A DNA stretch of 46,211 nucleotides from Alistipes sp. (GTDB taxonomy: Bacteria > Bacteroidota > Bacteroidia > Bacteroidales > Rikenellaceae): the NCBI GenBank assembly GCA_017646625.1, contig JAGCMF010000023.1, forward strand, positions 1 to 46,211, written 5' to 3'. The translations under genes and the position numbers were made by a program. A model generated the notes under the pieces. It did no database searches, was not told the DNA's origin, and saw only the letters and a program-made list of their open reading frames with translations. Each line of letters opens with the position of its first letter. The stretch's first letter is position 1. Below, piece by piece: positions 1-34,942 of the stretch.

Positions 1-59
1 AGGGCATCCAGTATGGTCGTGTTGAGGATGTACACAACTGGAATGTTATTGTAGAGTAA
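1..59 (+). CDS. 3' end of an unrecognised gene (partial)
   Basis: Reading from base 3, an open frame of 18 codons (GIQYGRVEDVHNWNVIVE) ends at a TAA stop at 57-59. The other two forward frames close within the same stretch or give less plausible composition. The gene begins left of the window and I do not recognise its family from this tail. Its stop codon overlaps the first bases of repeat copy A, whose T-tailed hairpin at 100-145 could terminate its transcript. Confidence 0.55.
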   Translation, partial: GIQYGRVEDVHNWNVIVE

Positions 60-185
60 TTTCTTGTTAGAAGGGGTCATCTTCGACTCTTCAATCAACG
101 CCACCAATGGGACGTACGTCAAGTACTACCCATCGGTGGCTTTTTCATGTCAGAGCCAAATCTGACGCCCTTCTAACAAGAAATT
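58..185 (+). repeat. Intergenic repeat family, copy A (class I core, full length)
   Basis: An 18-bp perfect inverted repeat (58-75 with 168-185; arm AATTTCTTGTTAGAAGGG) closes the element. Inside is a small hairpin, GTC (76-78) pairing GAC (85-87) around the loop ATCTTC. A long hairpin follows at 100-140: GCCACC pairs GGTGGC, then an A.C mismatch, ATGGG pairs CCCAT, a 2x2 internal loop, GTAC pairs GTAC, apical loop GTCAA. TTTTT follows at 141-145, so it can act as a terminator on the plus strand. The left arm starts on the TAA stop of the upstream gene. Related copies are at 187, 5680, 31033, 31171, 34651 and 34836, with a core-only relative at 44683. Confidence 0.85.
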
Positions 186-186
186 T

Positions 187-275
187 AATTTCTTGTGATA
201 GCGGCGCATCTGCGACGCTTCAATCAAACGACAGAATGGAATGTACGTCAAGTACTACCCATCCGGGGCTTTTTC
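187..275 (+). repeat. Intergenic repeat family, copy B (class I core, 3' arm missing)
   Basis: This copy starts one base after copy A with the arm AATTTCTTGTGATA. It carries the small hairpin CGC-ATCT-GCG, the CTTCAATCA segment and a degenerate class I hairpin (ATGG 236-239 with CCAT 259-262; GTAC 243-246 with GTAC 252-255; loop GTCAA). It lacks the expected CCCTTCT...ACAAG closing arm. The sequence runs instead into the long inverted repeat that starts at 269, which suggests truncation or replacement at that junction. Confidence 0.7.
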
Positions 276-463
276 ATTGTCGGGTACCAAAGGGCATAAA
301 AGGGCAGAAGGGTCACAAGGGTCAGAAAAGGTAAAAACAAAAGTCCGCGTCAACGCACAACCTTTTATGCCCTTTTATGACGCTTTATGCCCTTTGGCGC
401 CAAACACAGCATCCGCGACAACGCCCTACCTTTTATGCCCTTTGGTACCCGACAATGAAAAAG
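269..463. repeat. Perfect 35-bp inverted repeat around a 125-bp loop
   Basis: Bases 269-303 are the exact reverse complement of 429-463. The loop (304-428) and flanks carry several more copies of the motif TTTATGCCCTTT or its complement AAAGGGCATAAA. A direct repeat of AGGGCAGAAGGGTCACAAGGG type occurs just inside the left arm (about 301-321) and, with one extra A, just outside the right arm (about 462-484). No TAnnTTTG promoter is seen in the loop in either orientation, so an invertible promoter is not supported. It could be a strong hairpin, a small RNA, or a relic of recombination. Confidence 0.85.
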
Positions 464-617
464 GGCAGAAAGGGTCACAAGGGACATTGTCTCATTGTCC
501 CAAAAATTGTCCGCCAGGCCCCATTTTCAAAAAAAAATTATCTCACTGCTCCCCATCTGCAATAGTGCCCTGTAGATAAAAATTAACTAAAAATTTCGTC
601 GTTAGGAAAATTTTGCT

Positions 618-625
618 TAACTTTG
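618..625 (+). promoter_or_regulatory. Bacteroidetes -7 box for the ior operon
   Basis: TAACTTTG matches the Bacteroidetes -7 consensus TAnnTTTG. It is the only good match in the 270 bp before iorA. A -33 box is weak (TTTCG near 594). If used, the transcript has a leader of about 100 nt containing the alternating tract at 651-680 and a small hairpin. Confidence 0.6.
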
Positions 626-650
626 AAGATGCGTAATTGCGCCTATACGA

Positions 651-680
651 ATATGTATGTGCATGCGCGCGTATACACAC
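651..680. other. 30-nt perfectly alternating purine-pyrimidine tract in the ior leader
   Basis: Every base from 651 to 680 alternates purine and pyrimidine (it begins ATATGTATGTGCATGCGCGC). The tract is AT-rich at the ends with a GCGCGC centre, a composition able to adopt left-handed Z-DNA under negative supercoiling. It sits about 26 bp downstream of the -7 box and 50 bp before iorA. Any role is inference. Confidence 0.75.
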
Positions 681-692
681 TCGTGGAGTGTG
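676..692 (+). other. Leader hairpin before iorA
   Basis: CACACTC (676-682) pairs perfectly with GAGTGTG (686-692) around the loop GTG. No T-run follows, so it is not a terminator. It overlaps the end of the alternating tract and lies 39 nt before the iorA start, where it could affect transcript stability or translation. Confidence 0.5.
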
Positions 693-731
693 ATGCTGAT
701 ATAAGTTAAACAACCTAAAAACTATACCGAT

Positions 732-2351
732 ATGAAAAAACTACTTCTCGGTGACGAGGCTATTGCACAGGCTGCTATCGACGCAGGTCTGTCGGGAGTA
801 TATGCATATCCCGGTACGCCATCTACCGAAATTACAGAATTCATTCAGCTACGCGAGGAGAAGCGTGGCGATGCAGACAACAAGATTTGCTGCCGTTGGG
901 CAACAAATGAGAAGACAGCGATGGAGGGTGCTCTCGGCATGTCATACATGGGTAAGCGTGCCCTTGTATGTATGAAGCATGTGGGTATGAATGTTGCTGC
1001 CGACCCATTCGTTAACTCGGCGATGACAGGTGTGAATGGTGGTCTTGTAGTTGTTGCTGCTGATGACCCCTCTATGCACTCATCGCAGAACGAGCAGGAC
1101 TCACGCTTCTATGGTAAGTTCGCCCTCATGCCTATCTTCGAGCCATCATCACAGCAGGAGGCTTACGACATGACTCATGCGGCATTCGAGCTCTCGGAGG
1201 CTGTTAAGCTCCCTGTGCTCATGCGTGTTACAACACGTATGGCGCACTCACGTGCTGTTGTTAACATCACCGAGGAGCCACGCAAGCAGAATGATATATG
1301 CCGTCCCGAGGATGTGCGTCGTTGGATCCTTCTTCCAGCCTTCGCCAAGAAGCGCTATGTGGAGTTGCTCGCACAGCAGGATGACCTGATGAAGGCTGCC
1401 GTAGAGTCGAAGTATAACCTCTACCGCAAGGGCACAACACCCGAGAGAGGTGTCATCTGCACAGGTATCGCCTACAACTACTATATGGAGAATGCTGCTG
1501 GCTGCCAGGAGCGCAGCGTGCTCAAGGTGTCACAGTATCCATTGCCCGTAGAGCTCATCGAGAAGATGGTTGAGGATGGCGCAAAGGAGATCCTCGTCAT
1601 GGAGGAGGGTCAGCCTGTTGTTGAGGAGATGGTACGCGCCATCGTGCCTTCAACAGTTGAGGTTAAGGGCCGTCTCACAGGTGATTTGCCACGTGTTGGT
1701 GAGCTTACTCCCGACAGTGTGCGTAAGTCATTGGGCATGGCGGCGTTGGAGAACCTTGAGGCTGACGACATCGTTGTGGCACGTCCACCTGCCTTGTGTC
1801 AGGGTTGTGGCCACAGAGATATGTACAAGGCGTTGAACGAGGTTGCTGCGGAGTACGAGAATCCACGTATCTTCGGCGATATCGGCTGCTACACACTTGG
1901 TGCTTTGCCTCCATTCCAGGCGTTGCATGCATGTGTTGAGATGGGTGCTTCAATCACCATGGCGAAGGGTGCTGCTGATGCTGGTCAGTTCCCATCATTT
2001 GCCGTTATCGGTGACTCTACATTCACACACTCGGGTATGACAGGCCTCTTGGACTGCGTTAACTCTAATGCAAATGTTGTTGTTGTAATCTCTGATAACC
2101 TCACTACAGGTATGACCGGTGGTCAGGACTCTGCAGGTACAGGTAAGATTGAGGATATCTGCCGTGGCGTGGGTGTTAACCCCGACCATGTACGTGTTGT
2201 TGTGCCATTGCCAAAGAACATGGAGGAGATCAAGAGCATCTTGCGCGAGGAGATTGAGTACAAGGGTGTATCAGTCATCATTCCACGTCGTGAGTGTATC
2301 CAGACCGCGAAGCGTCATGCAAAGGCGAGAGCAGCAGCAAAGAAGGAGTAA
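732..2351 (+). CDS. iorA: Indolepyruvate:ferredoxin oxidoreductase, alpha subunit
   Basis: This TPP-dependent subunit oxidises aryl-pyruvates (indolepyruvate, phenylpyruvate, hydroxyphenylpyruvate) to arylacetyl-CoA with reduction of ferredoxin. The 539-residue protein opens with the pyrimidine-binding domain (GVYAYPGTPSTEI) and has the CQGCGH motif (Cys356, Cys359, His361). The TPP-binding segment follows, with GDIGCYTLG and then GDSTFTHSG ... NLTTGMTGGQDS. It ends in a basic tail about where many archaeal IorA proteins continue into a C-terminal ferredoxin domain. No CxxCxxC cluster is present, so the Fe-S relay must be external or absent. The start follows an A-rich leader. iorB follows after 28 bp. 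The arrangement with an aminotransferase and a CoA-transferase supports aromatic amino-acid fermentation. Confidence 0.93.
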   Translation: MKKLLLGDEAIAQAAIDAGLSGVYAYPGTPSTEITEFIQLREEKRGDADNKICCRWATNEKTAMEGALGMSYMGKRALVCMKHVGMNVAADPFVNSAMTGVNGGLVVVAADDPSMHSSQNEQDSRFYGKFALMPIFEPSSQQEAYDMTHAAFELSEAVKLPVLMRVTTRMAHSRAVVNITEEPRKQNDICRPEDVRRWILLPAFAKKRYVELLAQQDDLMKAAVESKYNLYRKGTTPERGVICTGIAYNYYMENAAGCQERSVLKVSQYPLPVELIEKMVEDGAKEILVMEEGQPVVEEMVRAIVPSTVEVKGRLTGDLPRVGELTPDSVRKSLGMAALENLEADDIVVARPPALCQGCGHRDMYKALNEVAAEYENPRIFGDIGCYTLGALPPFQALHACVEMGASITMAKGAADAGQFPSFAVIGDSTFTHSGMTGLLDCVNSNANVVVVISDNLTTGMTGGQDSAGTGKIEDICRGVGVNPDHVRVVVPLPKNMEEIKSILREEIEYKGVSVIIPRRECIQTAKRHAKARAAAKKE

Positions 2352-2379
2352 GCCGATAAACAACAAAAAAGAGACTATC

Positions 2380-2961
2380 ATGAAGAAAGATATTATTTTG
2401 GCAGGCGTCGGCGGACAGGGTATTCTGTCGATTGCTACGGTTATTGGCGAGGCAGCCTTGGCCGAGGGTTGGAACATCAAGCAGGCGGAGGTTCATGGCA
2501 TGAGCCAGCGTGGTGGCGATGTGCAGAGTAACTTGCGACTCTCAACAGAGCCTATCGCTTCGGACCTCATCGCGAAGGGTGGTGCCGACATCATCATCTC
2601 GTTGGAGCCTATGGAGGCGTTGCGCTACTTGCAGTATTTGAAGAAGGATGGTTGGGTTGTTACATCTAATGTCCCCTTCATCAACATCCCTAACTACCCA
2701 GCAGAGGAGGAGCTTGGCAAGCATCTTGCGGCACTCCCTAACTGCGTATCGTTGAATGTTGAGCAGTTGGCCAAGGATGCTGGTGCGCCACTTCAGGCTG
2801 CCAATATGGTGCTCCTCGGTGCTGCCATTCCTATGCTCGACATCGAGTTCGAGAAGATTGAGGCGGGTATTCGTCGTATCTTCGCACGTAAGGGCGAGGA
2901 GGTCATCGAGAAGAACCTCGCAGCGGTACGTGCTGGTTACGATAACTCAATAAAGAGATAG
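2380..2961 (+). CDS. iorB: Indolepyruvate:ferredoxin oxidoreductase, beta subunit
   Basis: This is the gamma-type (POR/KOR gamma) subunit that pairs with IorA. The 193-residue protein starts MKKDIILAGVGGQG, whose glycine-rich motif is characteristic of the family. It continues with AEVHGMSQRGGDVQSNLR, which matches the conserved CoA/TPP-interface segment of these subunits. The ATG at 2380 fits the family start and the A-rich leader. An upstream in-frame start at 2119 would lie deep inside iorA and is rejected. The stop abuts the ATG of the next gene (TAGATG), so the two are translationally coupled. Confidence 0.93.
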   Translation: MKKDIILAGVGGQGILSIATVIGEAALAEGWNIKQAEVHGMSQRGGDVQSNLRLSTEPIASDLIAKGGADIIISLEPMEALRYLQYLKKDGWVVTSNVPFINIPNYPAEEELGKHLAALPNCVSLNVEQLAKDAGAPLQAANMVLLGAAIPMLDIEFEKIEAGIRRIFARKGEEVIEKNLAAVRAGYDNSIKR

Positions 2962-4284
2962 ATGGATATGGAGAGACCATTGGATAAGCAGACCGTAGAT
3001 AACATATGTATTGCTAACGGTTTGCGCAACGCCAAGGAGCTTGGTGCTGCATCTATACGTCAGTTCGTCAGCGTCGTGAAGGATATCGAGGCGAAGATGG
3101 GCGTGGAGTATATACGTATGGAGATTGGTGAGCCTGGTCTCCCTGCCGAGATGATTGGTATCGAGGCGGAGCATGAGGCGTTGCTTGCGGGCGTAGGCTC
3201 GAAGTATCCCCTCATCACAGGTATCGAGCCCCTCACAAAGGAGGCATCGCGCTTCGTTAAGGCCTTCATCAACCTCGACATTCCTCCTGTATGCTTTGTG
3301 CCTACGGTAGGCTCTATGCAGGGTGCCTTTGCGGCGTTCATGGCGTTGAATCAGATGCGTGACGACCGCGATACAATCCTCTTTATCGACCCAGGCTTCC
3401 CTGTGCAGAAGATGCAGTGTAAGGTTCAGGGCATACGCTTCGAGTCGTTCGATGTCATCGACTACCGTGGCAAGGCTCTCGAGGCGAAACTCGAGGAGGT
3501 GTTGTCGTCAGGTCGCATCAGCGGTATGATATACTCTAACCCTAACAACCCTACATGGATGTGCCTCAACGAGGAGGAGTTGGAGATTATTGGTCGTATG
3601 GCTACGAAGTATGATGTCGTTGTCATCGAGGATTTGGCATACCTCAACATGGACTTCCGTGAGGATAGATCGAAGCCTTTCGAGGCACCATACCAGCCCT
3701 CTGTAGCGCGCTACACAGACAACTGCATGCACCTGTTGTCGGGCTCGAAGATGTTCTCATATGCTGGTCAGCGTATCGCCGTTGTTGCACTCAACCCTGC
3801 GCTTGCTGAACGCTGCTATGAGGGCTTCGCACAGCGCTATGGCAACGATGGTCAGTTCCGCCGTAACTTCATCTTCAACATCCTATATGTCCTCTCATCG
3901 GGTGTTCCACACTCTGCGCAGTATGCCTTGGCGGCTATGTTCCGTGCGGCATCTGACGGCAAGCTCAACTATGTGGAGCACACACGTGAGTATGCACGTC
4001 GTGCGCAGCGCGTGAAGGAGATTATGGTTAAGAATGGCTTCCATATCGTCTACGATAAGGATTGCGACCAGGATGTCAGCGATGGCTTCTTCTTCACATT
4101 CGGATATAAGGATATGACTGGCGAGCAGCTCATCAACAAGCTCATCTACTATGGCATCTCGGCCATCACACTATCACCTACGGGTAGCTCACGCGAGGGT
4201 CTTCGTGGTTGTGTGTCGATGATCTCGGACTACCAGTATGATGAGTTGGATAAGCGTTTGCGCCTCTTCAGCCAGGACTATTAA
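2962..4284 (+). CDS. Class I/II PLP-dependent aminotransferase, probably aromatic
   Basis: A fold-type I aminotransferase of 440 residues. NPNNPT lies at 193-198, the cofactor-binding Asp at 224 (VIEDLAY), the Schiff-base lysine at 263 (SGSKMFSYAGQR), and a C-terminal Arg region near SREGLRGCVSM. It directly follows the iorB stop. A second ATG two codons downstream (2968) is also possible. In an operon with iorAB its natural role is to convert aromatic amino acids to the 2-oxoacids that IorAB consumes. That substrate is inferred from context; the sequence alone supports only an aminotransferase. A hairpin with a T-run follows at 4347-4378. Confidence 0.87.
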   Translation: MDMERPLDKQTVDNICIANGLRNAKELGAASIRQFVSVVKDIEAKMGVEYIRMEIGEPGLPAEMIGIEAEHEALLAGVGSKYPLITGIEPLTKEASRFVKAFINLDIPPVCFVPTVGSMQGAFAAFMALNQMRDDRDTILFIDPGFPVQKMQCKVQGIRFESFDVIDYRGKALEAKLEEVLSSGRISGMIYSNPNNPTWMCLNEEELEIIGRMATKYDVVVIEDLAYLNMDFREDRSKPFEAPYQPSVARYTDNCMHLLSGSKMFSYAGQRIAVVALNPALAERCYEGFAQRYGNDGQFRRNFIFNILYVLSSGVPHSAQYALAAMFRAASDGKLNYVEHTREYARRAQRVKEIMVKNGFHIVYDKDCDQDVSDGFFFTFGYKDMTGEQLINKLIYYGISAITLSPTGSSREGLRGCVSMISDYQYDELDKRLRLFSQDY

Positions 4285-4346
4285 GCGATTGTCGTACGGG
4301 CTACATAGGCTTGTGACGTACAATTTCGAGTAAATGTAATAAGTTA

Positions 4347-4378
4347 GGGCTGCCCGAAGTCAAAGGACGGCCCTTTTT
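4347..4378 (+). terminator. Terminator-like hairpin inside the ior cassette
   Basis: GGGCTG (4347-4352) pairs with CGGCCC (4368-4373), one G.U pair included. The stem extends through CC/GG past one mismatch and is followed by TTTTT (4374-4378). It lies 13 nt before the ATG of the CoA-transferase with no clear TAnnTTTG promoter between. It may act as a partial terminator that lowers expression of the last gene. Confidence 0.65.
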
Positions 4379-4391
4379 AAAAATAGTGTGT

Positions 4392-5681
4392 ATGAATTTT
4401 GTTAGTGCGGCTGAAGCCGCCAAGCTTATCAAGTCGGGTGACTCGGTATATATCCAGGGCTCGACATCTGTTCCCGAGGTGTTGGTGCAGGCTATGACCG
4501 ACCGTGCTGCGGAGCTCCGTGGCGTGAAGGTATATACTGCCTTTGCCATCGGTCGTTGCGATGCTCCCTATGCCAAGGCCGAGCTACGCGACTCATTCGA
4601 GCCATTGAGCTTCTTCGTTGCCAACAACCTCCGCAATGCCATTAACTCGGGTGTTGCGCAGACCATCCCAGCCTTCCTTGGCGAGATTCCCTTCTTGTTC
4701 CGTTCTGGTCAGGTGCCCTTGGATGTTACGCTGCTCAACGTCTCGGAGCCCGATGAGGATGGCTACTGCTCATATGGTATCTCTGCCGACCTCGCATTCT
4801 CGGCTGTGGAGTGCTCAAAGACTGTCATCGCCCAGGTGAATAAGTATATGCCTCGCACGTTTGGTGACCCTGTCATCCATGTGTCGAAGCTCGCCGCTAT
4901 GGTACGTGGCGATGAGCCTCTTGTCGAGGTGCCTACGGTCATCCCTAACGATGTTGAGAGAGCCATAGGTAACTATATCGCACAGGAGATTCCTGATGGT
5001 GCTACCCTCCAGATTGGTGTTGGTGGCATCCCTAATGCTGTCCTCGATGCGCTTCACGACCATAAGCACCTCGGCCTACATACCGAGGCTATGACCGACG
5101 GTGTTGTGCCCCTCATCCAGAAGGGTATCATCGACAACTCGTTGAAGAAGCTCTATCCTGGTCAGTCGTTGGCATGCTTGTGCCTCGGTAGCCAGCGTTT
5201 GTATGACTATCTCGATGGTAACCGCGATGTTGTCATCCGCGATGTTGCCTGGACTAACGACCCACAGAATATACGCCAGAACCCCAAGGTTATGGCTGTA
5301 AACTCTGCTATCGAGGTTGACCTTACGGGTCAGATATGTGCCGATAGTATCGGTGAACGCATCTTCTCTGGTGTCGGTGGCCAGCACGACTTCATGTATG
5401 GTGGTGCGTTGTCCGAGGGTGGTAAGTGCTTCATCGCCCTTCCATCAATCACTTCGAAGGGTGTATCGAAGATTGTGCCTACTCTCACCAAGGGTGCTGG
5501 TGTCGTTACCACACGCTTCCAGGCGCAGTATATCGCTACAGAGCATGGTATCGTCTACCTACGTAATAAGTCGTTAGCGCAGCGTGCCAAGCTCCTTATC
5601 TCTATCGCAGACCCATCAGTACGTGAGGATTTGGAACGTGCGGCTGTTGAGAGGTTTGGCATAGGATTCCTCCGCGCATAA
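4392..5681 (+). CDS. Acetyl-CoA hydrolase/transferase family CoA-transferase
   Basis: This protein belongs to the acetyl-CoA hydrolase/4-hydroxybutyrate CoA-transferase family, which moves CoA between acyl groups through a glutamyl-CoA thioester. The likely catalytic glutamate is Glu232 in HTEAMTDGVV. The family motifs GVGGIPNAV and SGVGGQHDFMYGG are present, and 429 residues is the normal length. An upstream GTG at 4386 adds only two residues; the ATG at 4392 matches the family start. After IorAB a plausible job is to release arylacetate from arylacetyl-CoA while conserving the thioester on acetate or another acid. The acyl specificity cannot be read from sequence. Repeat copy C begins on its TAA stop. 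Confidence 0.88.
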   Translation: MNFVSAAEAAKLIKSGDSVYIQGSTSVPEVLVQAMTDRAAELRGVKVYTAFAIGRCDAPYAKAELRDSFEPLSFFVANNLRNAINSGVAQTIPAFLGEIPFLFRSGQVPLDVTLLNVSEPDEDGYCSYGISADLAFSAVECSKTVIAQVNKYMPRTFGDPVIHVSKLAAMVRGDEPLVEVPTVIPNDVERAIGNYIAQEIPDGATLQIGVGGIPNAVLDALHDHKHLGLHTEAMTDGVVPLIQKGIIDNSLKKLYPGQSLACLCLGSQRLYDYLDGNRDVVIRDVAWTNDPQNIRQNPKVMAVNSAIEVDLTGQICADSIGERIFSGVGGQHDFMYGGALSEGGKCFIALPSITSKGVSKIVPTLTKGAGVVTTRFQAQYIATEHGIVYLRNKSLAQRAKLLISIADPSVREDLERAAVERFGIGFLRA

Positions 5682-5804
5682 TATCTTGTGATAAGGGGTT
5701 GATTGCGGCCCCTAACAAAAAATGCCGTCAATGGGACGTACGCCAAGTACTACCCATCGACGGCATTTTTGCCGAGTGTAGCACTCGGCGCCCTTCTGAC
5801 AAGA
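5680..5804 (+). repeat. Intergenic repeat family, copy C (class I core)
   Basis: The left arm CTTGTGATAAGGGG (5685-5698) pairs imperfectly with CCCTTCTGACAAG (5791-5803). The central hairpin pairs AAAAATGCCGTC (5718-5729) with GACGGCATTTTT (5759-5770). Then come the conserved A.C mismatch, ATGGG with CCCAT, a 2x2 loop, GTAC with GTAC, and apical loop GCCAA. A second hairpin follows, CCGAGTG (5772-5778) with CACTCGG (5782-5788). The A- and T-runs flanking the central stem make it a candidate bidirectional terminator between the CoA-transferase and convergent gcvH. The copy overlaps the upstream stop codon (TAA at 5679-5681). Confidence 0.8.
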
Positions 5805-5806
5805 AG

Positions 5807-5957
5807 TTAGGGAGTTTAGGGAAATTAGGGAAGTTAGGGAGTTTAGGGAGGATAAGGAGTTTAGGGAAATTAGGGAGTTTAGGGAGTTTAGGGAAGTTAG
5901 GGAATATGTTCTATCCTCCTTAAACTCCTTATCCTCCTTAAACTCCCTAAACTCTCT
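5807..5957. repeat. 9-bp TTAGGGANN tandem array facing an inverted array
   Basis: Eleven 9-bp units run from 5807 to 5905, nearly all reading TTAGGGAGT, TTAGGGAAA or TTAGGGAAG, with one variant ATAAGGAGT. After seven bases, five units of the complementary sense (ATCCTCCTT, AAACTCCTT and similar) run 5913-5957. The two arrays can fold on each other. The G-triplets spaced by six bases could also form a G-quadruplex. Open frames across it on both strands encode only repeated GKLGSLG or LNSL peptides and are not genes. It starts just after copy C and ends next to the gcvH terminator. Confidence 0.9.
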
Positions 5958-5960
5958 AAA

Positions 5961-5992
5961 ACAAAAAAGGCGTCCTGCCGTAGCAAGACGCC
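5961..5992 (-). terminator. Rho-independent terminator of gcvH
   Basis: On the minus strand GGCGTCTTG (5992-5984) pairs with CAGGACGCC (5977-5969), nine base pairs with one G.U, around a six-base loop. TTTTTT then T-rich sequence follows. It lies 23 bp downstream of gcvH. Confidence 0.88.
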
Positions 5993-6014
5993 AATGACGT
6001 AGTATGTACGCCAA

Positions 6015-6395
6015 TTATCCGATAAGAGCCTCGTAAGCTGCTGCGTCGAGAAGCTCCTCAACCTCTGCAGGGTTAGACATCTTAATCTTTACCAACCAAC
6101 CCTCGCCATAAGGATCTTTGTTAACGAGTGATGAGTCTGCCTCTACAGCCTCGTTGAACTCGATAACCTCGCCACTTACTGGTGAGAAGGCGTCAGATAC
6201 AGTCTTTACAGCCTCGATAGAGCCGAACACCTCGTTAGCCTCGATATTCTCGCCTACAGTAGGAACATCAACGAATACGATGTCACCGAGCTGTGACTGT
6301 GCATAGTCAGTAATGCCGATAACGGCAACATCACCCTCTACACGGCACCACTCGTGGTCGTTAGAGTACTTCAAATTAGCAGGTACATTAGCCAT
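6015..6395 (-). CDS. gcvH: Glycine cleavage system H protein
   Basis: GcvH is the lipoyl carrier that shuttles the aminomethyl group among the P, T and L proteins of glycine cleavage. The 126-residue protein has the expected length. It shows the N-terminal strand HEWCRVEGDVAVIGITDYA and the lipoylation site Lys64 in GSIEAVKTVSD, followed by SPVSGEVIEFN. The Bacteroidetes promoter at 6471-6500 and the terminator at 5961-5992 make it monocistronic. The other gcv genes are not in the window. With fhs (32982) it gives two one-carbon genes in this segment, but they are not linked. Confidence 0.96.
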   Translation of the reverse strand: MANVPANLKYSNDHEWCRVEGDVAVIGITDYAQSQLGDIVFVDVPTVGENIEANEVFGSIEAVKTVSDAFSPVSGEVIEFNEAVEADSSLVNKDPYGEGWLVKIKMSNPAEVEELLDAAAYEALIG

Positions 6396-6470
6396 AATTC
6401 AAGTTGTATTAAGTTGTAATTATTGTTGTCTTAACTCCTATTACGCCCTCTATGCGTACTTTCGCAAGTA

Positions 6471-6500
6471 CAAATATACACTTTATTCCGTTCAAACAAA
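6471..6500 (-). promoter_or_regulatory. gcvH promoter
   Basis: On the minus strand TTTG (6500-6497) is followed after 18 bases by TATATTTG (6478-6471), a perfect -7 box. The predicted transcript starts about 65 nt before the gcvH ATG. Confidence 0.72.
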
Positions 6501-6547
6501 AATTTTGGAATACTTTTTTTCGCTGTAGTGTGGTGAATGGGGTGTTG

Positions 6548-7288
6548 TTATGCCTTGTTGTGCACCTTATGAGGCAGCACAAACTCCACCTCCTTGAAGG
6601 CATACTCCCTTACTATGCCATCCTCATGCTCGAGACATAACTCTCCCGAGGGTCGTACACCGCGTATTGTGGCACGGAACTCCACGCCATCGGCATAGGC
6701 GTAGGTGTGCTGCTCGTCGCGGTGGTACATGCTCATGCGGTAGCGGCTCTCTATGGCCTCCTTCTGGCCACTCTCGAGAAGGTCGTATAGCGCAGCTATC
6801 TTTGTGCTAAAGGTATCGAGTATCTCTCGTCTGTCGAAGGTTATGCCTCTCTCCACAGCCATAGAGGTAGGGTTTGGTAGCTCCTCGGGGAACGATAGTT
6901 GGTTTACGTTTAGGCCTATGCCTATCACTGTGCGAGAGAGGTTCATGCCGGCAAGAGTATGCTCTATGAGTATGCCCACAATCTTATTGTCGCCAGCGTA
7001 TATGTCGTTTGTCCACTTTATGCGGCACTCTATGTCATACTCCTTGAGTGTGTCGACGAGGGCGAGGGCAGCAATCTCGGAGATGAGGAACTGCTCGGTG
7101 GCGGGGAGGAAGGTGGGTGTGAGGATGATGGAGAATGTTATGTTCTCTCCGCTATGGCTATGCCACGAGTGTCCACGCTGTCCACGACCCGATGTTTGGT
7201 GCTCGGCCCAGATGATGTCCATATGTCCATATTGCCTATCTCGTGCATCATCATTTGTCGATGTTGTCTCTGTTTTGTAGTAGAGCAT
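6548..7288 (-). CDS. birA: Biotin--[acetyl-CoA-carboxylase] ligase, catalytic-domain only
   Basis: Biotin protein ligase activates biotin to biotinyl-AMP and attaches it to the carboxylase carrier protein. Visible motifs are STN near residue 10, the biotinyl-AMP loop GRGQRG (34-39), KWTNDI (91-96, where most family members have KWPNDI), KIVGILIE, and GIGLNVNQ. At 246 residues it lacks the N-terminal winged-helix domain of bifunctional BirA, so it should not repress transcription. Its promoter lies back to back with that of the plus-strand operon starting at 7373. Confidence 0.95.
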   Translation of the reverse strand: MLYYKTETTSTNDDARDRQYGHMDIIWAEHQTSGRGQRGHSWHSHSGENITFSIILTPTFLPATEQFLISEIAALALVDTLKEYDIECRIKWTNDIYAGDNKIVGILIEHTLAGMNLSRTVIGIGLNVNQLSFPEELPNPTSMAVERGITFDRREILDTFSTKIAALYDLLESGQKEAIESRYRMSMYHRDEQHTYAYADGVEFRATIRGVRPSGELCLEHEDGIVREYAFKEVEFVLPHKVHNKA

Positions 7289-7314
7289 ATATTAAAGTGT
7301 TGTTAAATATCGTT

Positions 7315-7322: not shown

Positions 7323-7343
7323 GAAAAAATCCTTGAAAAAGGT

Positions 7344-27651: not shown

Positions 27652-27685
27652 AGACTCTATGTAATATAGTATGTAAGACTACCTA

Positions 27686-28714
27686 TTAGTAGTTTCCTAT
27701 CACTGCCTCGAGGTGCTGCTTCCAGATGAGTGCTGCGCCACCGAGTATGGCCACATTCTTATCCTGTATGCCACTCATCAAGAGCTTAACCTTACCCTTG
27801 AATACGCCGAGCTGATTCTCCTCCATATGCTTGTATGTTGGGCGGAGGATGTAGTCGCCAGCGTTAGCCAAGCCGCCGAAGAGGATGATTGCCTCGGGTG
27901 ATGTCACGGCAGTGAGGTCGGCAAGAGCAAGGCCGAGGTACTTACCTGTGCGCTCAAATGCCTCGAGGGCTATAGGGTCGTTCTTCGCCGCAGCATCCGA
28001 GAGCATCTTCGCCTCGAACTTGTCGTAAGGTATTGTGCGTAGCTCGCTGTCGCAAGTCATTGTTGCCATAAGGTCGAAGGCTGTGCGCTTGATGCCTGTT
28101 GCCGAGACGTATGCCTCGAGACAACCCTTGCGGCCGCAGCCACACTCACGACCTGTCTCGCGTGACTCGATGGCTATGTGGCCATACTCGCCAGCGAAGC
28201 CGTCGTGGCCGTATACCATCTCGCCGTTACATACTATACCCGAGCCGAGGCCTGTGCCGAGTGTGATCATCGCAAAGTCCTTCATGCCACGTGCATTGCC
28301 GAAGACCATCTCGCCGATGGCAGCAGCATTGGCATCGTTGGTTATCATCACCTTTGTGCCACAGAAGTGCTTGCCGAGGTCCTCAACAAAGTTGAATATA
28401 CGTATTGAGTTGGGGCGTGGGTCTGCGGGGTTCTCGAACTTCCAGAGGTTTGCAGGTATCTCTATGCGGCCGCTGTGTATGTTTGCGTTGGGCGCGCCAA
28501 CGCCTATACCTATGAGGTCGCACTCGGGCTGTGATGCCACGAGCTCCTTCATTGCTGCAGCAAGTGTCTCGATATAAGGGCGATAGTCGTCGAAATACTT
28601 AAACTTATCGGTAGATATTTTGCTCTCGGCAACGACGTTGCCATCCTCATCCACAAGGCCAAAGGCTGTATTGGTACCGCCAATATCGATACCCATAGCG
28701 AGTTTTTTCTTCAT
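27686..28714 (-). CDS. ROK-family sugar kinase (glucokinase type)
   Basis: A 342-residue ROK protein without an N-terminal helix-turn-helix, hence a kinase rather than a NagC/XylR repressor. ATP-binding is GIDIGGTNTAFG (8-19). The catalytic Asp lies at about 127 in TNDANAAAIGE, and LGTGLGSGIV forms the second phosphate loop. The ROK zinc motif is complete: Cys191, Cys193 and Cys198 in ECGCGRKGCLEA, with the His of EYGH. Glucose or N-acetylglucosamine are usual substrates; the choice cannot be made here. It has its own promoter and terminator. Confidence 0.9.
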   Translation of the reverse strand: MKKKLAMGIDIGGTNTAFGLVDEDGNVVAESKISTDKFKYFDDYRPYIETLAAAMKELVASQPECDLIGIGVGAPNANIHSGRIEIPANLWKFENPADPRPNSIRIFNFVEDLGKHFCGTKVMITNDANAAAIGEMVFGNARGMKDFAMITLGTGLGSGIVCNGEMVYGHDGFAGEYGHIAIESRETGRECGCGRKGCLEAYVSATGIKRTAFDLMATMTCDSELRTIPYDKFEAKMLSDAAAKNDPIALEAFERTGKYLGLALADLTAVTSPEAIILFGGLANAGDYILRPTYKHMEENQLGVFKGKVKLLMSGIQDKNVAILGGAALIWKQHLEAVIGNY

Positions 28715-28746
28715 ACGAGTTTAATTATTTTTTGAAAATTATTGGT

Positions 28747-28779
28747 CAAAGTTACCAAAATTATTTTAATCTCTGCAAA
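28747..28779 (-). promoter_or_regulatory. Promoter of the ROK kinase gene
   Basis: The minus strand has TTTG (28779-28776) and, 21 bases on, TAACTTTG (28754-28747), 32 bp before the ATG. It is divergent from the prenyl synthase promoter. Confidence 0.65.
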
Positions 28780-28787
28780 AAAAATCT

Positions 28788-28795
28788 TAATTTTG
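28788..28795 (+). promoter_or_regulatory. -7 box of the prenyl synthase/U32 operon
   Basis: TAATTTTG matches TAnnTTTG and ends 26 bp before the ATG at 28822. The -33 region is only T-rich. Confidence 0.6.
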
Positions 28796-28821
28796 ACCCA
28801 TAATTATGAATATGGTGAATT

Positions 28822-29796
28822 ATGAGACATACGAACAGTGAAATATTGGAGCTTTTTGAGGGTGCGCTCGGCCAGCTGCAGACCCCCGAGGAGCCGGAGT
28901 ATCTCTATGCTCCGATAATCTACTCTATGTCGGGTGGTGGCAAGCGTCTGCGCCCCGTGCTTCTGCTCATCACCGCCGAGGCTTTTGGTGGTAGTGTCGA
29001 GGAGGCTATGCCCGCGGCGATGGCGGTGGAGATATTCCACAACTTCACACTCCTGCATGACGACATCATGGATAATGCCGATGTGCGCCGTGGTAAGCCC
29101 TCGGTGTTTGCGCGCTGGGGAGGTAACGTAGCACTCCTCTCGGGCGATGCCATGCTCATCACCGCTTATAAGCATCTTGCACGTGTTGCTGCTCCCGTGT
29201 TGCCACGTGTCATGCAGCTCTTTGGTGACATGGCGCTGGAGGTGTGCGAGGGTCAGCAGTACGACATGGACTTTGAGCATAAGGCCGAAGTGTCGGTTGA
29301 GGAGTATATGCTCATGATAGAACGTAAGACCTCGGCACTCCTCTCTGGCTCGGCGATGATAGGTGCCACCATGGCGGGTGCTGCGGATGAGGATATAAAG
29401 AAGATATACCGCTTTGCCACAGAGCTCGGTCTTGCCTTCCAGCTTCAGGACGATATGCTCGACAGCTATGGCGACGAGGCGCTGGGCAAGAAGATCGGTG
29501 GCGACATCCTTGAGGGTAAGCAGACATACCTCATGGTGCAGGCTATGAACCGCGCTACGGAGGCGCAGCGTGAGGTGCTGCGCACTACACATCTGCGTGA
29601 TGACCTCACTGCCGAGCAGAAGATTGCTACGGTTAAGGCCCTCTACGATGAGTTGGCTGTTAAGCATGCTACGGAGCAGCAGATAGAGATACGCTTCGAC
29701 CGTGCTCTTGCACTCCTCGAGACACTATCTATTGGCGTTGAACGCACGGCTAACCTACGTGAGTTTGCGCGTAACCTAATCGGAAGAAGACGATGA
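28822..29796 (+). CDS. Trans-isoprenyl diphosphate synthase, short-chain type
   Basis: This enzyme condenses isopentenyl diphosphate onto allylic diphosphates. The first Asp-rich motif is LLHDDIMDNADVRRG (Asp80, Asp81, Asp84), and the second is LQDDMLDSYGD. The fifth residue before the first motif is Phe75. A bulky aromatic there normally limits products to C15-C20, while octaprenyl synthases such as IspB carry Ala. This favours farnesyl or geranylgeranyl diphosphate over the menaquinone side chain. The 324-residue length is normal. Its last four bases (ATGA) overlap the start of the U32 gene. Confidence 0.88.
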   Translation: MRHTNSEILELFEGALGQLQTPEEPEYLYAPIIYSMSGGGKRLRPVLLLITAEAFGGSVEEAMPAAMAVEIFHNFTLLHDDIMDNADVRRGKPSVFARWGGNVALLSGDAMLITAYKHLARVAAPVLPRVMQLFGDMALEVCEGQQYDMDFEHKAEVSVEEYMLMIERKTSALLSGSAMIGATMAGAADEDIKKIYRFATELGLAFQLQDDMLDSYGDEALGKKIGGDILEGKQTYLMVQAMNRATEAQREVLRTTHLRDDLTAEQKIATVKALYDELAVKHATEQQIEIRFDRALALLETLSIGVERTANLREFARNLIGRRR

Positions 29797-31034
29797 TACG
29801 ACGACATGATATAGAGATTATGGCGCCTGTGGGCTCCTACGAGGCACTCAATGCAGCCATCGCTGCGGGTGCTAACTCGGTATACTTTGGTGTTGAGCAG
29901 CTCAACATGCGTGCTGCCTCATCTGTGAACTTCACCCTCGATGACCTCGCCGAGATTGTGCGCACGGCACATGCTGCGGGCGTCAAGACATACCTTACCG
30001 TGAATATCGTCATCTATGATGATGAGATGGAGGTCATGCGTCGCATCATAGACAGGGCGAAGAGTGAGGGTGTTGATGCCATCATCGCTACCGACCTTGC
30101 CGCTATACTATATGCCCGTGAGGTGGGCATGGAGGTGCACATATCCACCCAGAGCAACATCTCGAACATCGATGCCGTTAAGTTCTTCGCGCAGTGGGCA
30201 GATGTTGTGGTGCTGGCACGCGAGTTGTCGTTGGAGCAGATTGCCGCCATCTCGCGCCAGATTCAGGAGCAGAAGATATGTGGTCCTGCGGGTGAGCTTG
30301 TCAAGATTGAGATGTTTGCACATGGTGCCATGTGTATGTCTATGTCGGGTAAGTGCTACCTCTCGGAGCATGAGTCGCACCACTCGGCAAACCGTGGTGC
30401 CTGCCGCCAGATATGCCGCCGTAAGTACACCATCACAGATAAGGATAGTGGCCAGCAGCTCGACATTGACGGCCAGTATGTGTTGTCACCCAAGGACTTG
30501 TGTACTATCGACTTCCTCGACACATTCATCGAGGCGGGTGTCAGGGTGCTCAAGATTGAGGGTCGTGCGCGTGGTGGCGAGTATGTGAAGCGTGTTGTTG
30601 AGAGCTACAACGAGGCGTTGCTGCTCATGGAACGTGGTGAGTTCAATGCCGAGAGTGTTGCTCCCCTCAAGGAGAAGCTACGCACCGTCTTCAACCGCGA
30701 CTTCTGGGGTGGCTACTATGCCGCCAAGACCATGGTTGAGCATAGCCAGCACTACGGCTCGTCAGCAACCCTCAAGAAGGTCTATATGGGTAAGGTTACA
30801 AACTACTTTAAGCGTATAGGCGTTGCCGAGGTTCTCGTTGAGGCATGCGAGGTGCAGGAGGGTGAGGCACTCCTCTTCATGGGCGAGAAGACAGGTGTCG
30901 TCGAGCAGAAGGCCGAGGGCATCATGGTCAAGGAGGCTCCCACAACAATCGCCAAGCAGGGTGACTATATGTCACTTAAGACCGTATCGGAGGTGCGCCG
31001 AGGTGACAAGGTCTATAAAGAGGTAGCTCGTTAA
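29793..31034 (+). CDS. Peptidase U32 family protein (TrhP/PrtC-like)
   Basis: U32 proteins, once called collagenases, include TrhP (prephenate-dependent tRNA uridine hydroxylation) and RlhA (23S rRNA C2501 hydroxylation). The TIM-barrel start MAPVGSYEALNAAIAAGANS and the conserved ARELSLEQI are visible. So is the Cys-rich site: MFAHGAMCMSMSGKCYLS, then ANRGACRQICRR. The C-terminal U32 domain includes KVYMGKVTNYFKR. RNA hydroxylation is more likely than proteolysis, but the target cannot be chosen. Its start overlaps the prenyl synthase by 4 bp. Repeat copy D starts on its stop codon. Confidence 0.9.
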   Translation: MIRRHDIEIMAPVGSYEALNAAIAAGANSVYFGVEQLNMRAASSVNFTLDDLAEIVRTAHAAGVKTYLTVNIVIYDDEMEVMRRIIDRAKSEGVDAIIATDLAAILYAREVGMEVHISTQSNISNIDAVKFFAQWADVVVLARELSLEQIAAISRQIQEQKICGPAGELVKIEMFAHGAMCMSMSGKCYLSEHESHHSANRGACRQICRRKYTITDKDSGQQLDIDGQYVLSPKDLCTIDFLDTFIEAGVRVLKIEGRARGGEYVKRVVESYNEALLLMERGEFNAESVAPLKEKLRTVFNRDFWGGYYAAKTMVEHSQHYGSSATLKKVYMGKVTNYFKRIGVAEVLVEACEVQEGEALLFMGEKTGVVEQKAEGIMVKEAPTTIAKQGDYMSLKTVSEVRRGDKVYKEVAR

Positions 31035-31160
31035 TTTGTTGTGATAAGGGTGCATCTGCGGCATCGAGCTTGTCTGCTAAATGCTCACATACGTTTAGTA
31101 TGCTCCGCTTTATCAGACTGCGACTCGCTGCCACATCTGCAACCCTTCTGACAACAAATT
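31033..31160 (+). repeat. Intergenic repeat family, copy D (class II core, full length)
   Basis: The closing arms are 31033-31051 (AATTTGTTGTGATAAGGGT) and 31142-31160 (ACCCTTCTGACAACAAATT), 17 of 19 paired. The core hairpin (31060-31132) has alternating stems. Outward to inward they are GGCA with TGCC, CGAG with CTCG, GTCTG with CAGAC, AAA with TTT, and CATAC with GTATG, topped by the loop GTTTA. A 6x6 internal loop, TGCTCA opposite CTCCGC, lies just below the top stem. The left arm begins on the TAA stop (31032-31034) of the U32 gene. The core at 44683 has the same layout with different stem sequences. Confidence 0.85.
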
Positions 31161-31170
31161 GGGGGTGGAA

Positions 31171-31240
31171 GATGATAAGGGCGCATCTGCGACACCGAGC
31201 TTGTCTACTACCAAATCTGCAACCCGTTTGATGACAGATT
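31171..31240 (+). repeat. Intergenic repeat family, copy D2 (core deleted)
   Basis: A 70-bp copy keeps the left end (GATGATAAGGGCGCATCTGC), a CACCGAGCTTGTCT segment like copy D, and the right end (ACCAAATCTGCAACCC then GTTTGATGACAGATT). The central hairpin is missing, as if it had been cut out at its base. It lies 10 bp after copy D. With the AT-rich run and the short 9-bp array, it fills the 325-bp gap before the M24 aminopeptidase gene. Confidence 0.7.
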
Positions 31241-31285
31241 AGAGTGGTGATGAAGTGAGATTTTATTGATTTTTAGAGAAGCGAA

Positions 31286-31321
31286 ATCCTCCCTAAACTC
31301 TTTAATTTCCCTAATCTCCCT
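31286..31321 (-). repeat. Short 9-bp array of the TTAGGGANN kind
   Basis: On the minus strand four 9-bp units read AGGGAGATT, AGGGAAATT, AAAGAGTTT and AGGGAGGAT. They are the same unit types as the larger array at 5807-5957. It again lies downstream of a copy of the intergenic repeat family and just upstream of a gene leader. Confidence 0.75.
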
Positions 31322-31359
31322 AAAAATAAAAAAAGTATAAAACCTAAAACTATAAAACT

Positions 31360-32754
31360 ATGTTCAGTAAAGAGACTTATATTGGCCGTCGTGCCGAGTT
31401 GTGCCGAAGAGTGGGTAAGGGTCTTATCCTATTGCCTGCAAACCCAGAGGTGCCTAACAACTATCCTAACAACACATACTACTACCGTCAGGACTCAACC
31501 TTCCGTTACTACTTTGGTCTTGACGTGCCATCGCTTATCGGCCTCTTGGATGCCGAGACAGGCGAGGCTATGCTCTTTGGTGATGACTTCACCGTAGAGG
31601 ATATCATCTGGACAGGTCCTATGCCTACCATCGCTGATCAGGCTGCCGAGGTGGGTGTGGAGAAGAGCTATGCTCGCAATGCCATCCGTGATGTGTTGCG
31701 CAAGGCGATAGAGCAGAATCGTCCTGTACACTACCTTCCTCCCTACCGTGCGGAGCTAAAGATTGAGGTTGCCGACTGGTTGGGCATACGTCTTGGCATG
31801 TTGCACGAACGTAAGTCGTTGGACCTCATGTTTGCTGTTGCCGAGATGCGCGAGAAGAAGTCGGCAGAGGAGATTGAGGCATTGGAGCGCGCCTTCAAGA
31901 TTGGCTACGAGATGCACATGACAGCTATGCGTATGTGTCGTCCAGGTGTTGTTGAGAGAGAGATTGCTGGTCGTGTTGAGGGCATTGCCAAGTCATACGG
32001 CCAGGGCGTGTCATTCCCAACGATCGTGACACAGCATGGTGAGATTCTCCACAACCACAACCATGACGGTGTGCTCGAGGCGGGTCGTCTGTTGTTGGTA
32101 GATGGTGGTGGCGAGTCTGTTGAGGGCTACTGCTCTGACCACACACGTACTTATCCTGTGAATGGTAAGTTTACAGATGTGCAGCGCGACATCTACAACA
32201 TTGTGTTGCGTGCTCACAGCCAGGTTAAGGATATGATTAAACCAGGCACCATGTATACCGATATACACCGTGCTGCATACCTCTCGTTGGCCGAGGGTCT
32301 CAAGGGCATGGGTCTTATCAAGTCTACACCCGAGGATGCTGTAGATGCTGGTGCTCTCTACCTCTTCATGCCTCACGGCTTGGGTCACGGCATGGGTATG
32401 GATGTTCACGACCTCGAGAACATTGGAGAACGTTCGTTCGACTTCTCAACTGTTGCAGAACGTGCTGCCAAGTCGGCAACATGCATCCACCGCAGCACAT
32501 GGCGTGTTGAGCCAGGCACGGTGATGTCTGATGAGCCAGGCATATACTTCATCCCAGCACTCATGGATAAGTGTCGTGCCGAGGGTAAGTTCGAGGGTAT
32601 CGTAGACTACGAGGCGCTCAACGCCTACCGTAACTTTGGCGGTATACGTATCGAGGACGATGTCCTTGTTACAGAGACAGGTAGCCGCTTTATTGGTGAC
32701 AAGCTGCTGCCACTCACTGTCGAGGAGCTCGAGGCTGTCATCGGCAAGGAGTAG
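31360..32754 (+). CDS. M24B-family aminopeptidase (Xaa-Pro aminopeptidase type)
   Basis: A dinuclear-metal aminopeptidase that removes an N-terminal residue ahead of proline. The creatinase-like N-domain (1-170) is followed by the pita-bread fold with all five metal ligands visible. They are Asp248 (VDGGGE), Asp260 (SDHTRTYP), His343 (GLGHGMG), Glu392 (DEPGIYF) and Glu432 (GIRIEDDVLV). The 464 residues match bacterial PepP. It is cytoplasmic, with no signal peptide. It stands alone between two non-coding gaps, and its promoter is not evident. The A-rich leader ends in ACTATAAAACT before the ATG. Confidence 0.93.
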   Translation: MFSKETYIGRRAELCRRVGKGLILLPANPEVPNNYPNNTYYYRQDSTFRYYFGLDVPSLIGLLDAETGEAMLFGDDFTVEDIIWTGPMPTIADQAAEVGVEKSYARNAIRDVLRKAIEQNRPVHYLPPYRAELKIEVADWLGIRLGMLHERKSLDLMFAVAEMREKKSAEEIEALERAFKIGYEMHMTAMRMCRPGVVEREIAGRVEGIAKSYGQGVSFPTIVTQHGEILHNHNHDGVLEAGRLLLVDGGGESVEGYCSDHTRTYPVNGKFTDVQRDIYNIVLRAHSQVKDMIKPGTMYTDIHRAAYLSLAEGLKGMGLIKSTPEDAVDAGALYLFMPHGLGHGMGMDVHDLENIGERSFDFSTVAERAAKSATCIHRSTWRVEPGTVMSDEPGIYFIPALMDKCRAEGKFEGIVDYEALNAYRNFGGIRIEDDVLVTETGSRFIGDKLLPLTVEELEAVIGKE

Positions 32755-32780
32755 TCGAGCAAGGATTATCTCGGTTGATA

Positions 32781-32823
32781 GTAAGGGCATGTGTGACCAC
32801 AGGTGGTAGCATGCCCTATTACT
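32781..32823 (+). terminator. Hairpin after the M24 aminopeptidase gene
   Basis: GGGCATG (32785-32791) pairs with CATGCCC (32810-32816). An outer GTAA with TTAC extends it beyond a small bulge. No T-run follows, so it is a weak candidate terminator. Confidence 0.5.
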
Positions 32824-32941
32824 TAAAGTATACCACTCGAATATAGGCTCGATATTTGATGGTATGCAGGATTATCTGTTTTGCTTATACGGATATAAAA
32901 ATATATTATGAAATAATAAGATTAGATATCTATTTTTTATA

Positions 32942-32949
32942 TATCTTTG
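32942..32949 (+). promoter_or_regulatory. fhs -7 box
   Basis: TATCTTTG, a perfect -7 box, ends 32 bp before the fhs ATG in a strongly AT-rich stretch. No good -33 box is visible. Confidence 0.65.
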
Positions 32950-32981
32950 CGGCAGAATAATAACAATAAAAACAGAGAGAG

Positions 32982-34652
32982 ATGAAAACAGATATTGAAA
33001 TTGCTCGTGAGACGAAACTAAAGAATATTCGTGAGGTTGCCGCGCAGGTAGGCTTCCCTGATGATGAGGTATTCAACTATGGTAAGTATATCGCAAAGGT
33101 GCCTTACAAGCTTATCGATGAGCATAAGGTTGCCAAGAATCACCTTATCCTTGTGACTGCCATCACAGCGACAAAGGCGGGTGTAGGTAAGACTACCGTT
33201 AGCATCGGCCTCGGCATGGGTCTTAACCACATTGGCAAGAATGCCATCATCGCACTCCGTGAGCCATCGTTGGGTCCCTGCTTCGGCATGAAGGGTGGTG
33301 CTACAGGTGGTGGCTATGCGCAGGTGTTGCCCTCGGAGGATATCAACCTTCACTTCACTGGCGACTTCCACGCCGTAACATCGGCTAACAACCTCATCGC
33401 TGCGTTGTTGGATAACTACCTATACCACAATCGTTCTACACAGGTGGGCCTCAAGAAGGTTATGTGGCGTCGTGTCCTCGACATGAACGACCGTTCGTTG
33501 CGTAACATCGTATCGGGTCTTGGTGGCTCGGCAAATGGCATACCTACAGAGACGGGCTTCGACATCACTCCAGCGTCGGAGATTATGGCCATCCTATGTC
33601 TTGCGCGTAATGTCGATGACCTATATGCTCGTATCGGTCGCATAGTGCTTGGTGTGCGCTATGACGACACCCCCTTCACTGTCAACGACCTCGGCGTCAC
33701 AGGCGCTGTGGTGGCACTCTTGAAGGATGCCATCAACCCCAACCTTGTGCAGACAACAGAGCACAACCCTGTCATCATCCATGGTGGTCCCTTCGCAAAT
33801 ATCGCCCATGGCTGTAACTCTGTCATCGCAACACGCATGGCAATGACATGGGCCGACTATACTGTCACAGAGGCAGGTTTTGGTGCCGACCTCGGTGCCG
33901 AGAAGTTCCTCGACATCAAGTGCCGCCAGGCGGGTCTCAAGCCAGACCTCACAGTCCTTGTGGCATCAACCCTCGCACTCAAGATGCACGGTGGTGTTCA
34001 CGAGTCGGAGATTAAGCTCCCTAACATGGAGGGCTTGAAGCAGGGCTTCGCCAACCTCGACCGTCATGTTGCTAACCTCAAGAAGTTTGGCCAGACAGTC
34101 CTCGTATGCTTCAACCGCTTTGCCAGCGATACTGACGATGAGATTGCCATGGTCATGGAGCACTGCGAGAGCCTTGGTGTGCGTTGCGTGATTAACAATG
34201 CATATGCCGAGGGTGGTGCTGGTGCTGCTGACCTTGCGCGTGCTGCTGTTGAGCTCATCGAGACACAGCCTTCAGCACCTATCAACTACGCCTACGACCT
34301 TGAGGATAGCATCAAGGAGAAGATTACCAAGGTGGCAAAGAACATCTATGGTGCTGGCTCTGTGGTCTTTGGCCCACGAGCACAGAAGGAGATTGCGCTG
34401 CTCGAGAAGTGGGGCATGGGTAACCTTCCTGTATGTATCGCCAAGACACAGTTCTCCTTCAGTGCTGATGCAAAACGTTATGGCAGCGTTGAGGGCTTCG
34501 AGATTAACATCAAGGATATCGAGCTCAATGCCGGTAGTGGCTTCATCGTGGCTCTTGCTGGCGACATCATGCGTATGCCAGGCTTGAGCAAGACACCACA
34601 GGCTGGTAACATACGTCTTGCTGAAGACGGTAATGTTGAAGGCATCGTATAA
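32982..34652 (+). CDS. fhs: Formate--tetrahydrofolate ligase
   Basis: Fhs makes 10-formyl-THF from formate, THF and ATP. The nucleotide-binding motif is [11 protein letters not shown] (62-72). It is followed by [19 protein letters not shown] and by [15 protein letters not shown], which are near-invariant in the family. The 556-residue length is normal. It is monocistronic, with its own promoter. Repeat copy E1 begins on its stop codon. The FNT-family channel gene elsewhere in the window may move formate, but the two are not co-transcribed. Confidence 0.97.
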
Positions 34653-34776
34653 TTTGTTGTGATAATAGGCCATCTTCGGCCTCTCAATCGCTATGGTGAA
34701 TGGGAAATACATCAGTATGTCCCATCCACCATAGCTCTTAATCGAGACCAAATCTGACCTATTCTGACAACAAATT
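34651..34776 (+). repeat. Intergenic repeat family, copy E1 (class I core, full length)
   Basis: The arms are AATTTGTTGTGATAATAGG (34651-34669) and CCTATTCTGACAACAAATT (34758-34776), 17 of 19 paired. The small hairpin is GGCC-ATCTTC-GGCC (34668-34681). The core pairs GCTATGGTG (34690-34698) with CACCATAGC (34727-34735). Then come the A.C mismatch, ATGGG with CCCAT, a 2x2 loop, ATAC with GTAT, and loop ATCA. The left arm starts on the fhs TAA stop (34650-34652). Confidence 0.85.
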
Positions 34777-34835
34777 GCGAGTAAGTAACTGCAAACTTAT
34801 GGTTTGTTGGACGCAGTGAGTGTTGCGATAGTAGA

Positions 34836-34942
34836 TATTTGGTTGTGATAATAGGCCTCTTCGGCCTCTCAATCGCTTTGGTGAATGGGAAATACGTCAG
34901 TATGTCCCATCCATCATAGCTCTTAATCGAAATCAGATAACA
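34836..34942 (+). repeat. Intergenic repeat family, copy E2 (class I core)
   Basis: This is a near-duplicate of E1 about 60 bp downstream, with the left arm ATTTGGTTGTGATAATAGG, the small hairpin GGCC-TCTTC-GGCC, and core arms GCTTTGGTG (34875-34883) and CATCATAGC (34912-34920). ATGGG, CCCAT, ATAC and GTAT are retained, with loop GTCA. Two stem positions have drifted (one T.T mismatch and one wobble). The right end is shortened to GAAATCAGATAACAA. With E1 it fills the 330-bp gap before mqnB. Confidence 0.78.

Follow-up and report, generated by a model that had tools for sequence, protein, structure and literature searches.

Analysis of a 46,211-nucleotide stretch of an Alistipes sp. genome (assembly GCA_017646625.1, contig JAGCMF010000023.1, positions 1–46,211; the window) revealed a folded repeat of about 128 nt, copies of which adjoin the ends of many unrelated genes, in the same orientation, in a group of gut bacteria. 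We give an even chance to the reading, drawn from sequence comparison, that this element would be a transcript 3′-end structure that also multiplies as a repeat. The basis of this reading is the anatomy of the element, its lock to the upstream stop codon, its sense orientation, the covariation of its arms, the scarcity of other terminators behind it and its gain or loss between species. If the element does act at transcript 3′-ends, replaceable, repeat-borne gene ends stand in for many ordinary terminators in these bacteria.

The full element was 126–131 nt long and was built of a closing outer helix, beginning AATTTCTTG or a variant of it, an internal loop GTGATAA / TTCTRAC, a region CATCTnCG / CCAnATCTG and a central hairpin. 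The apex of this hairpin, TAC + GTA, was invariant in 26 copies from the genome that contains the window (the own genome), with TACGNNNAGTA as the usual pattern. Genus-wide, TAC followed by 3–6 bases and [AGT]GTA was present in 195 of 199 copies, with loops more varied than those of the own genome.

Copies heading an array usually began at the stop codon of the upstream gene, most often as T|AA, and in sense. Model R1 found 75 element places in the own genome (1.87 Mb), and in 33 of these a frame of 80 codons or more had its stop codon no further than 12 nt from the element start; 23 of the 33 had the identical offset T|AA, and the stops were TAA (31) or TAG (2). Tandem copies behind another copy made up 25 of the 75 places, and others were nested, at contig ends or degenerate. 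The sample from relatives consisted of 114 fetched loci, from which 152 full copies were kept. The left gene was sense to the element in 130 of the 137 copies with a called left gene, and between codirectional genes 70 copies were sense and 3 antisense (binomial p about 1e-17); 45 of the 152 full copies lay between convergent genes. Distances to the stop peaked at −1 (58 copies), with 11 copies at 0 and 96 in all within −11 to +8, copies outside this range being mostly second copies about 125–130 nt further on. Counting from the first base beyond the stop codon, the helix base was at −3 to −1 in 67 of the 96. Among the 58 copies at offset −1, the stop was TAA in 54 cases and TAG in four; the partner base in these four was C in two and T in two, which is too few to claim coupling. 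An earlier reading of the window from sequence alone (the sequence-only reading) had overlooked both this lock and the fixed orientation. Stop-codon readthrough was rejected, as only 1 of 199 copies left frame 0 open across the element, and element lengths occurred in all three residues modulo 3.

An unbiased scan of 20-kb stretches not chosen for copies was carried out for helices spanning 85–175 nt. Helices starting between −3 and +4 of a stop numbered four for 79 gene ends in genome G017 and six for 76 in G029 (two at one gene), compared with one for 61 in the element-free G023 and three for 114 in the own genome (window included). Long helices were rare away from the stop in G017.

Orthologues with and without the element were compared at two genes that abut copies in the window. 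A match to the peptidase U32 gene was present in every one of the 61 genus genomes, and 30 of these loci were read. All 15 close orthologues terminated at the identical residue; the element was at the stop in seven, 11 nt further on in one and absent from seven. The stop codon is native, since orthologues with and without the element share the end residue, and it is at this unchanged stop that species have gained or lost the element. The class II form of the central hairpin was present in 6 of the 8 element-bearing close orthologues yet in only two R1 copies of the own genome, which makes descent at the U32 locus likely. Among the other 15 U32 loci (about 70% identical), five had a hairpin of quite different arms at the stop, as read by eye. 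For formate-tetrahydrofolate ligase, the element was at the stop in 5 of the 10 orthologue loci read, two reverse-strand loci having been left out.

Alignment of the arms showed that pairing was retained where the letters differed. In the 26 own-genome copies, two-sided changes were seen in 12 of 28 pairs, and 95.1% of cells were paired compared with 85.8% after shuffling and at most 46.8% with slid partners. The 199 copies contained 91 distinct arm pairs, of which 87.8% of positions were paired (shuffled mean 73.2%, maximum 75.9%); in the pattern-fetched loci, arm positions about 7–16 were fixed by the pattern and the free evidence comes from positions 1–6 only. Position 6 was CG in 95 copies, GC in 67, TA in 17 and AT in 9. 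These results uphold, above shuffled controls, the earlier claim that the closing arms pair in full-length copies. Thirty-five pairs of homologous genes were also compared, one of them paralogous within the own genome. In five pairs the cores were 89–95% identical, several with paired changes in the arms or apex; for example, L158 and L225 differed by G-C to C-G at position 6, and L122 broke the position-6 pair. That pairing tends to survive letter changes suggests that the repeats serve as a functional structure at gene ends and are not inert DNA.

Matching arms could also arise by mutation, through template switching within an imperfect palindrome (quasipalindrome correction), in which case the covariation would not be functional. 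Such correction could create some paired changes without selection, and the perfectly complementary arms of copy A (Table 1) are what it would leave behind. The two mismatches of the inner loop nevertheless persisted, with positions 9–16 fully complementary in only 2 of 199 copies (these positions being partly pattern-fixed in fetched loci), and correction leaves the stop-codon lock and the orientation unexplained. We regard this explanation as distinctly improbable.

Few other terminators followed the element. A further terminator within 120 nt was found at 2 of 41 element-bearing convergent gene ends compared with 21 of 53 element-free ones (p = 7e-5), and at 5 of 48 compared with 37 of 135 codirectional ends (p = 0.017). 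A T-rich tract (5 of 7) trailed the central hairpin in 125 of 195 copies, compared with 21 of 195 after segment shuffling; it was found before the hairpin in 7 of 195 and behind the whole element in 29 of 199. On these comparisons a role at the transcript 3′-end is likely, with termination and protection alike possible. The element would form the first part of the transcribed 3′ untranslated region of the abutting gene, where a long imperfect hairpin with its base on or next to the stop codon would form or protect the transcript 3′-end. The central hairpin, often with its trailing U-tract, may terminate transcription, and the closing helix would guard read-through transcripts against 3′ exonucleases.

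Several observations weigh against a transcript 3′-end structure. Under a strict hairpin-plus-T rule, a terminator was found within the copy in only 13 of 91 arrays, and neither within nor behind the copies in 72 of 91. Downstream terminators were no commoner in arrays without a U-tract than in those with one (convergent, 1/11 versus 1/22; codirectional, 2/21 versus 4/28), so the U-tract is unlikely to be the sole terminator. Furthermore, if the polymerase stopped at the inner U-tract the right arm would not be made, and the arm covariation would then need read-through or a cause at the DNA level. Homologous gene pairs were overall no closer in their cores than random pairs (both median 0.66, p = 0.19). 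Six of the 152 full copies lay inside called frames, and in 7 of the 96 copies near a stop the gene ended at a TGA within the element (L138, L135, L124, L149, L145, L196 and L200). Finally, in the unbiased scan of the own genome long helices were equally dense 41–80 nt behind the stop, where there are other repeats.

The repeats named by the sequence-only reading were of one family and were present at all seven of its coordinates (Table 1), and its description of a modular, structured, multi-copy family with interchangeable cores was borne out by the genome copies and the R1 search. Its description of shared ends held for four of the seven copies, the full-length A, C, D and E1 with their pairing arms, and failed for B, D2 and E2; B and E2 were without a proper right arm. 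Copies A, D, D2 and E1 carried the 3′ block it had described, CCAAATCTG or CCACATCTG; in E2 the block was degenerate, and neither B nor C showed it. RNA folding gave z-scores of −11.2 for A, −8.3 for C, −7.7 for D and −8.5 for E1, with equally good folds in 0 of 200 shuffles; the degenerate copies scored −0.3 (187–300), −1.1 (31161–31243) and −5.0 (34836–34945). The frame upstream of copy A extends past the left edge of the window, so the overlapping TAA is a presumed stop only, and the left arm of this copy read GTTAGAA rather than GTGATAA.

Table 1. Copies of the element and of a related repeat in the window
Feature	Position	Strand	Description
Copy A	58..185	+	Full length, arms perfectly complementary; TAA 57-59 overlaps its first two bases
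Copy B	187..303	+	Tandem second copy; keeps left arm and central hairpin, right part replaced by a low-complexity hairpin
Copy C	5680..5808	+	Full length; starts on the final two bases of TAA 5679-5681; upstream gene acetyl-CoA hydrolase-like, 4386-5681
Copy D	31033..31160	+	Full length, class II core; starts on the TAA of the peptidase U32 gene, 29793-31034
Copy D2	31171..31240	+	Degenerate tandem copy without central hairpin
Copy E1	34651..34776	+	Full length; starts on the TAA of the formate-tetrahydrofolate ligase gene, 32982-34652
Copy E2	34836..34949	+	Second copy, right end degenerate
Second related family, partial copy	44683..44850	+	Hairpin CTCATTTACGTTCAGTAAACTCCG; without left outer arm, extra stretch inserted

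The R1 search of the own genome returned 119 rows at E ≤ 1, which were merged to the better strand; the list of places omits two contig-end fragments, C9:1-121 and C14:1-26, and one overlapping row, C13:32179. Of the resulting places, 69 of 75 were at E ≤ 0.001. The left-arm 15-mer, allowing up to two mismatches, occurred 31 times forward and 13 times in reverse, the reversed control giving 3 and 7. The expectation of many hundreds of copies per genome, extrapolated from seven in the window, was an overestimate, and the window was locally enriched in copies relative to the genome. Contigs C13, C14, C23, C25, C34, C31, C9, C21 and C28 ended in copies. As several assembly contigs end in this way, the true copy number is probably higher and the repeats probably break the assembly.

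At E ≤ 0.001, R1 had hits in 24 of the 36 other genus genomes and in none of the 24 genomes from other families. A pattern scan of named genomes gave at least 114 matching stretches; among the 80 matches listed, every title was Alistipes sp. or Rikenellaceae bacterium, mainly from ruminant hindgut samples. On these matches the element appears to belong to one Rikenellaceae-like genus carried under these two titles.

Spread of the element to new loci is likely. The sequence-only reading had offered two options, movement in trans in the manner of miniature inverted-repeat transposable elements (MITEs) or repetitive extragenic palindromic (REP) sequences, or action as RNA. The RNA side is favoured because copies lie in sense at stop codons and show compensatory changes at some orthologous loci. 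REP-style movement in trans by a Y1 transposase was contradicted: PF01797 was found in 0 of 37 genus genomes, some of them incomplete drafts, compared with 19 of 24 other genomes of the order Bacteroidales searched alongside. Mobilisation of the REP and REP-associated tyrosine transposase (RAYT) type was rejected on this result. Reverse transcriptase (PF00078) was missing from the own genome and from the element-rich genomes G011, G017, G021, G022, G028 and G035, and where present (13 of 36 other genus genomes) did not track element number; retro-mobility was rejected on this distribution. Copy A had no match among phages, and a related hairpin had none among phages and plasmids, on which carriage by either was rejected; viral contigs gave one pattern match, inside a coding frame, which was read as chance.

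A non-autonomous MITE-like DNA element, moved by a transposase in trans and surviving behind genes as the least harmful sites, is rather unlikely in our view. MITEs such as Correia/NEMIS are approximately 100–150 nt long with inverted ends, are transcribed with neighbouring genes and fold in the mRNA; the present element resembles them in length and in its terminal inverted repeats. In favour of such an element, near-identical copies were found at unrelated genes, copies also occurred in tandem and nested, and a given stop codon could carry the element in one species and lack it in another; the arm covariation would then reflect transposase-specific inverted ends or a folded single strand. Unlike MITEs, it was without a target-site duplication, as the 3-mers matched in 2 of 58 copies at offset −1 (shuffled mean 1.9), although frequent trailing degenerate second copies could mask one. 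The outermost bases were the most variable and several arm types occurred within one genome, unlike ends read by one transposase; a parent insertion sequence was sought only via the Y1 family, the families searched being PF01797 and PF00078, with no search for DDE transposases or tyrosine recombinases. The 70:3 orientation and the single-base offset would also be unexpected from insertion plus purging alone.

For a transcript 3′-end structure that multiplies, new loci might be reached via an enzyme or by recombination between copies. In seven composite copies (including L065, L062, L045, L037 and L069), an R1-type element sat inside a repeat of a second family, at one fixed junction, which indicates that copies can reach new places and then be copied along with the host repeat. 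It is conceivable, and on balance doubtful, that new copies are targeted in sense to the native stops of unrelated genes, through a process that recognises where translation or the transcript ends and involves neither a Y1 transposase nor a reverse transcriptase. Were copies placed at stop codons in this way, DNA insertion would be coupled to translational or transcriptional ends, a new kind of link, and the genome would gain an exchangeable set of gene-end RNA modules.

A further alternative is a DNA-recognised element, such as a nucleoid-protein or recombinase site comparable to REP or attC hairpins, whose copies come to lie behind genes. The long hairpin with conserved loops and apex, in many dispersed copies, is consistent with this, but the orientation to the upstream gene was fixed. 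The consensus boxes of attC sites are RYYYAAC and GTTRRRY; these occurred in both arms, in either orientation, in 0 of 199 copies, and an integron attC site was rejected. The REP motifs were also scarce, with GTAG at an end in 5 of 199 copies and CGTC in 1 of 199, and we consider a DNA-recognised element very improbable. A K-turn-like reading of the internal loop was dropped, as there was no asymmetric bulge.

In Neisseria and Haemophilus, pairs of uptake sequences are dispersed repeats that double as gene-end terminators; the present element is far longer, modular and adjoins the stop codon, and no uptake role is suggested. REP sequences are the nearest precedent, as GTAG REP ends often provide the TAG stop of flanking frames and many REPs are transcribed (PMC3733652). 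Like the REPs of the GTAG/CGTC families and REPtrons, the element is palindromic, of high copy number and mostly behind coding regions. It differs in its length (REPs are 20–40 nt), its end motifs, the missing Y1 transposase in the genus genomes searched, its sense orientation and its single dominant offset. Palindromic candidate structured RNAs from the human microbiome occur in Bacteroidetes, and 230 of 250 were terminator-like (PMC8040213). The available part of that paper describes no stop-codon-locked family, and its palindromes are set apart from the element here by description, the sequences not having been compared.

The Rfam check proposed by the sequence-only reading gave no match in the window at gathering scores, this being the sole Rfam test that covered the copy at 5680. 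At E ≤ 5, no match was found in window positions 1–330, and the four weak matches in 30990–35000 did not lie on a copy. Among the papers listed as containing short sequence strings, all were apparently unrelated, judged by title. Palindromes behind genes are known, and full-text literature searches found no description of this element, nor of a long modular one with a single offset, fixed orientation and covarying arms. We class the element as a new form of interspersed palindromic repeat whose gene-end function is probable.

The second repeat family was about 118 nt long, with arms GAGAGTGAATAAAAAG / CTTTTTATTCACTCTC and hairpin CTCATTTACGNNNAGTAAACTSCG (loci L233-L245). Pattern matches to it numbered 43 in the own genome, and 294 further genomes of the order gave 2 single ones. 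A looser form of its hairpin recurred elsewhere in the order (9 of 128 other genomes), with 29 matches in G125 (L246-L269) and differing outer arms. Of 128 other genomes in the order, nine contained relatives of the class II hairpin of the element, with up to 29 exact matches in one. Long inverted repeats of short low-complexity units (AAAGGGCAT, TTAGGGAGT) were observed at window positions 280–470 and 5803–5960 and at L028, where they come after copies or take the place of their core.

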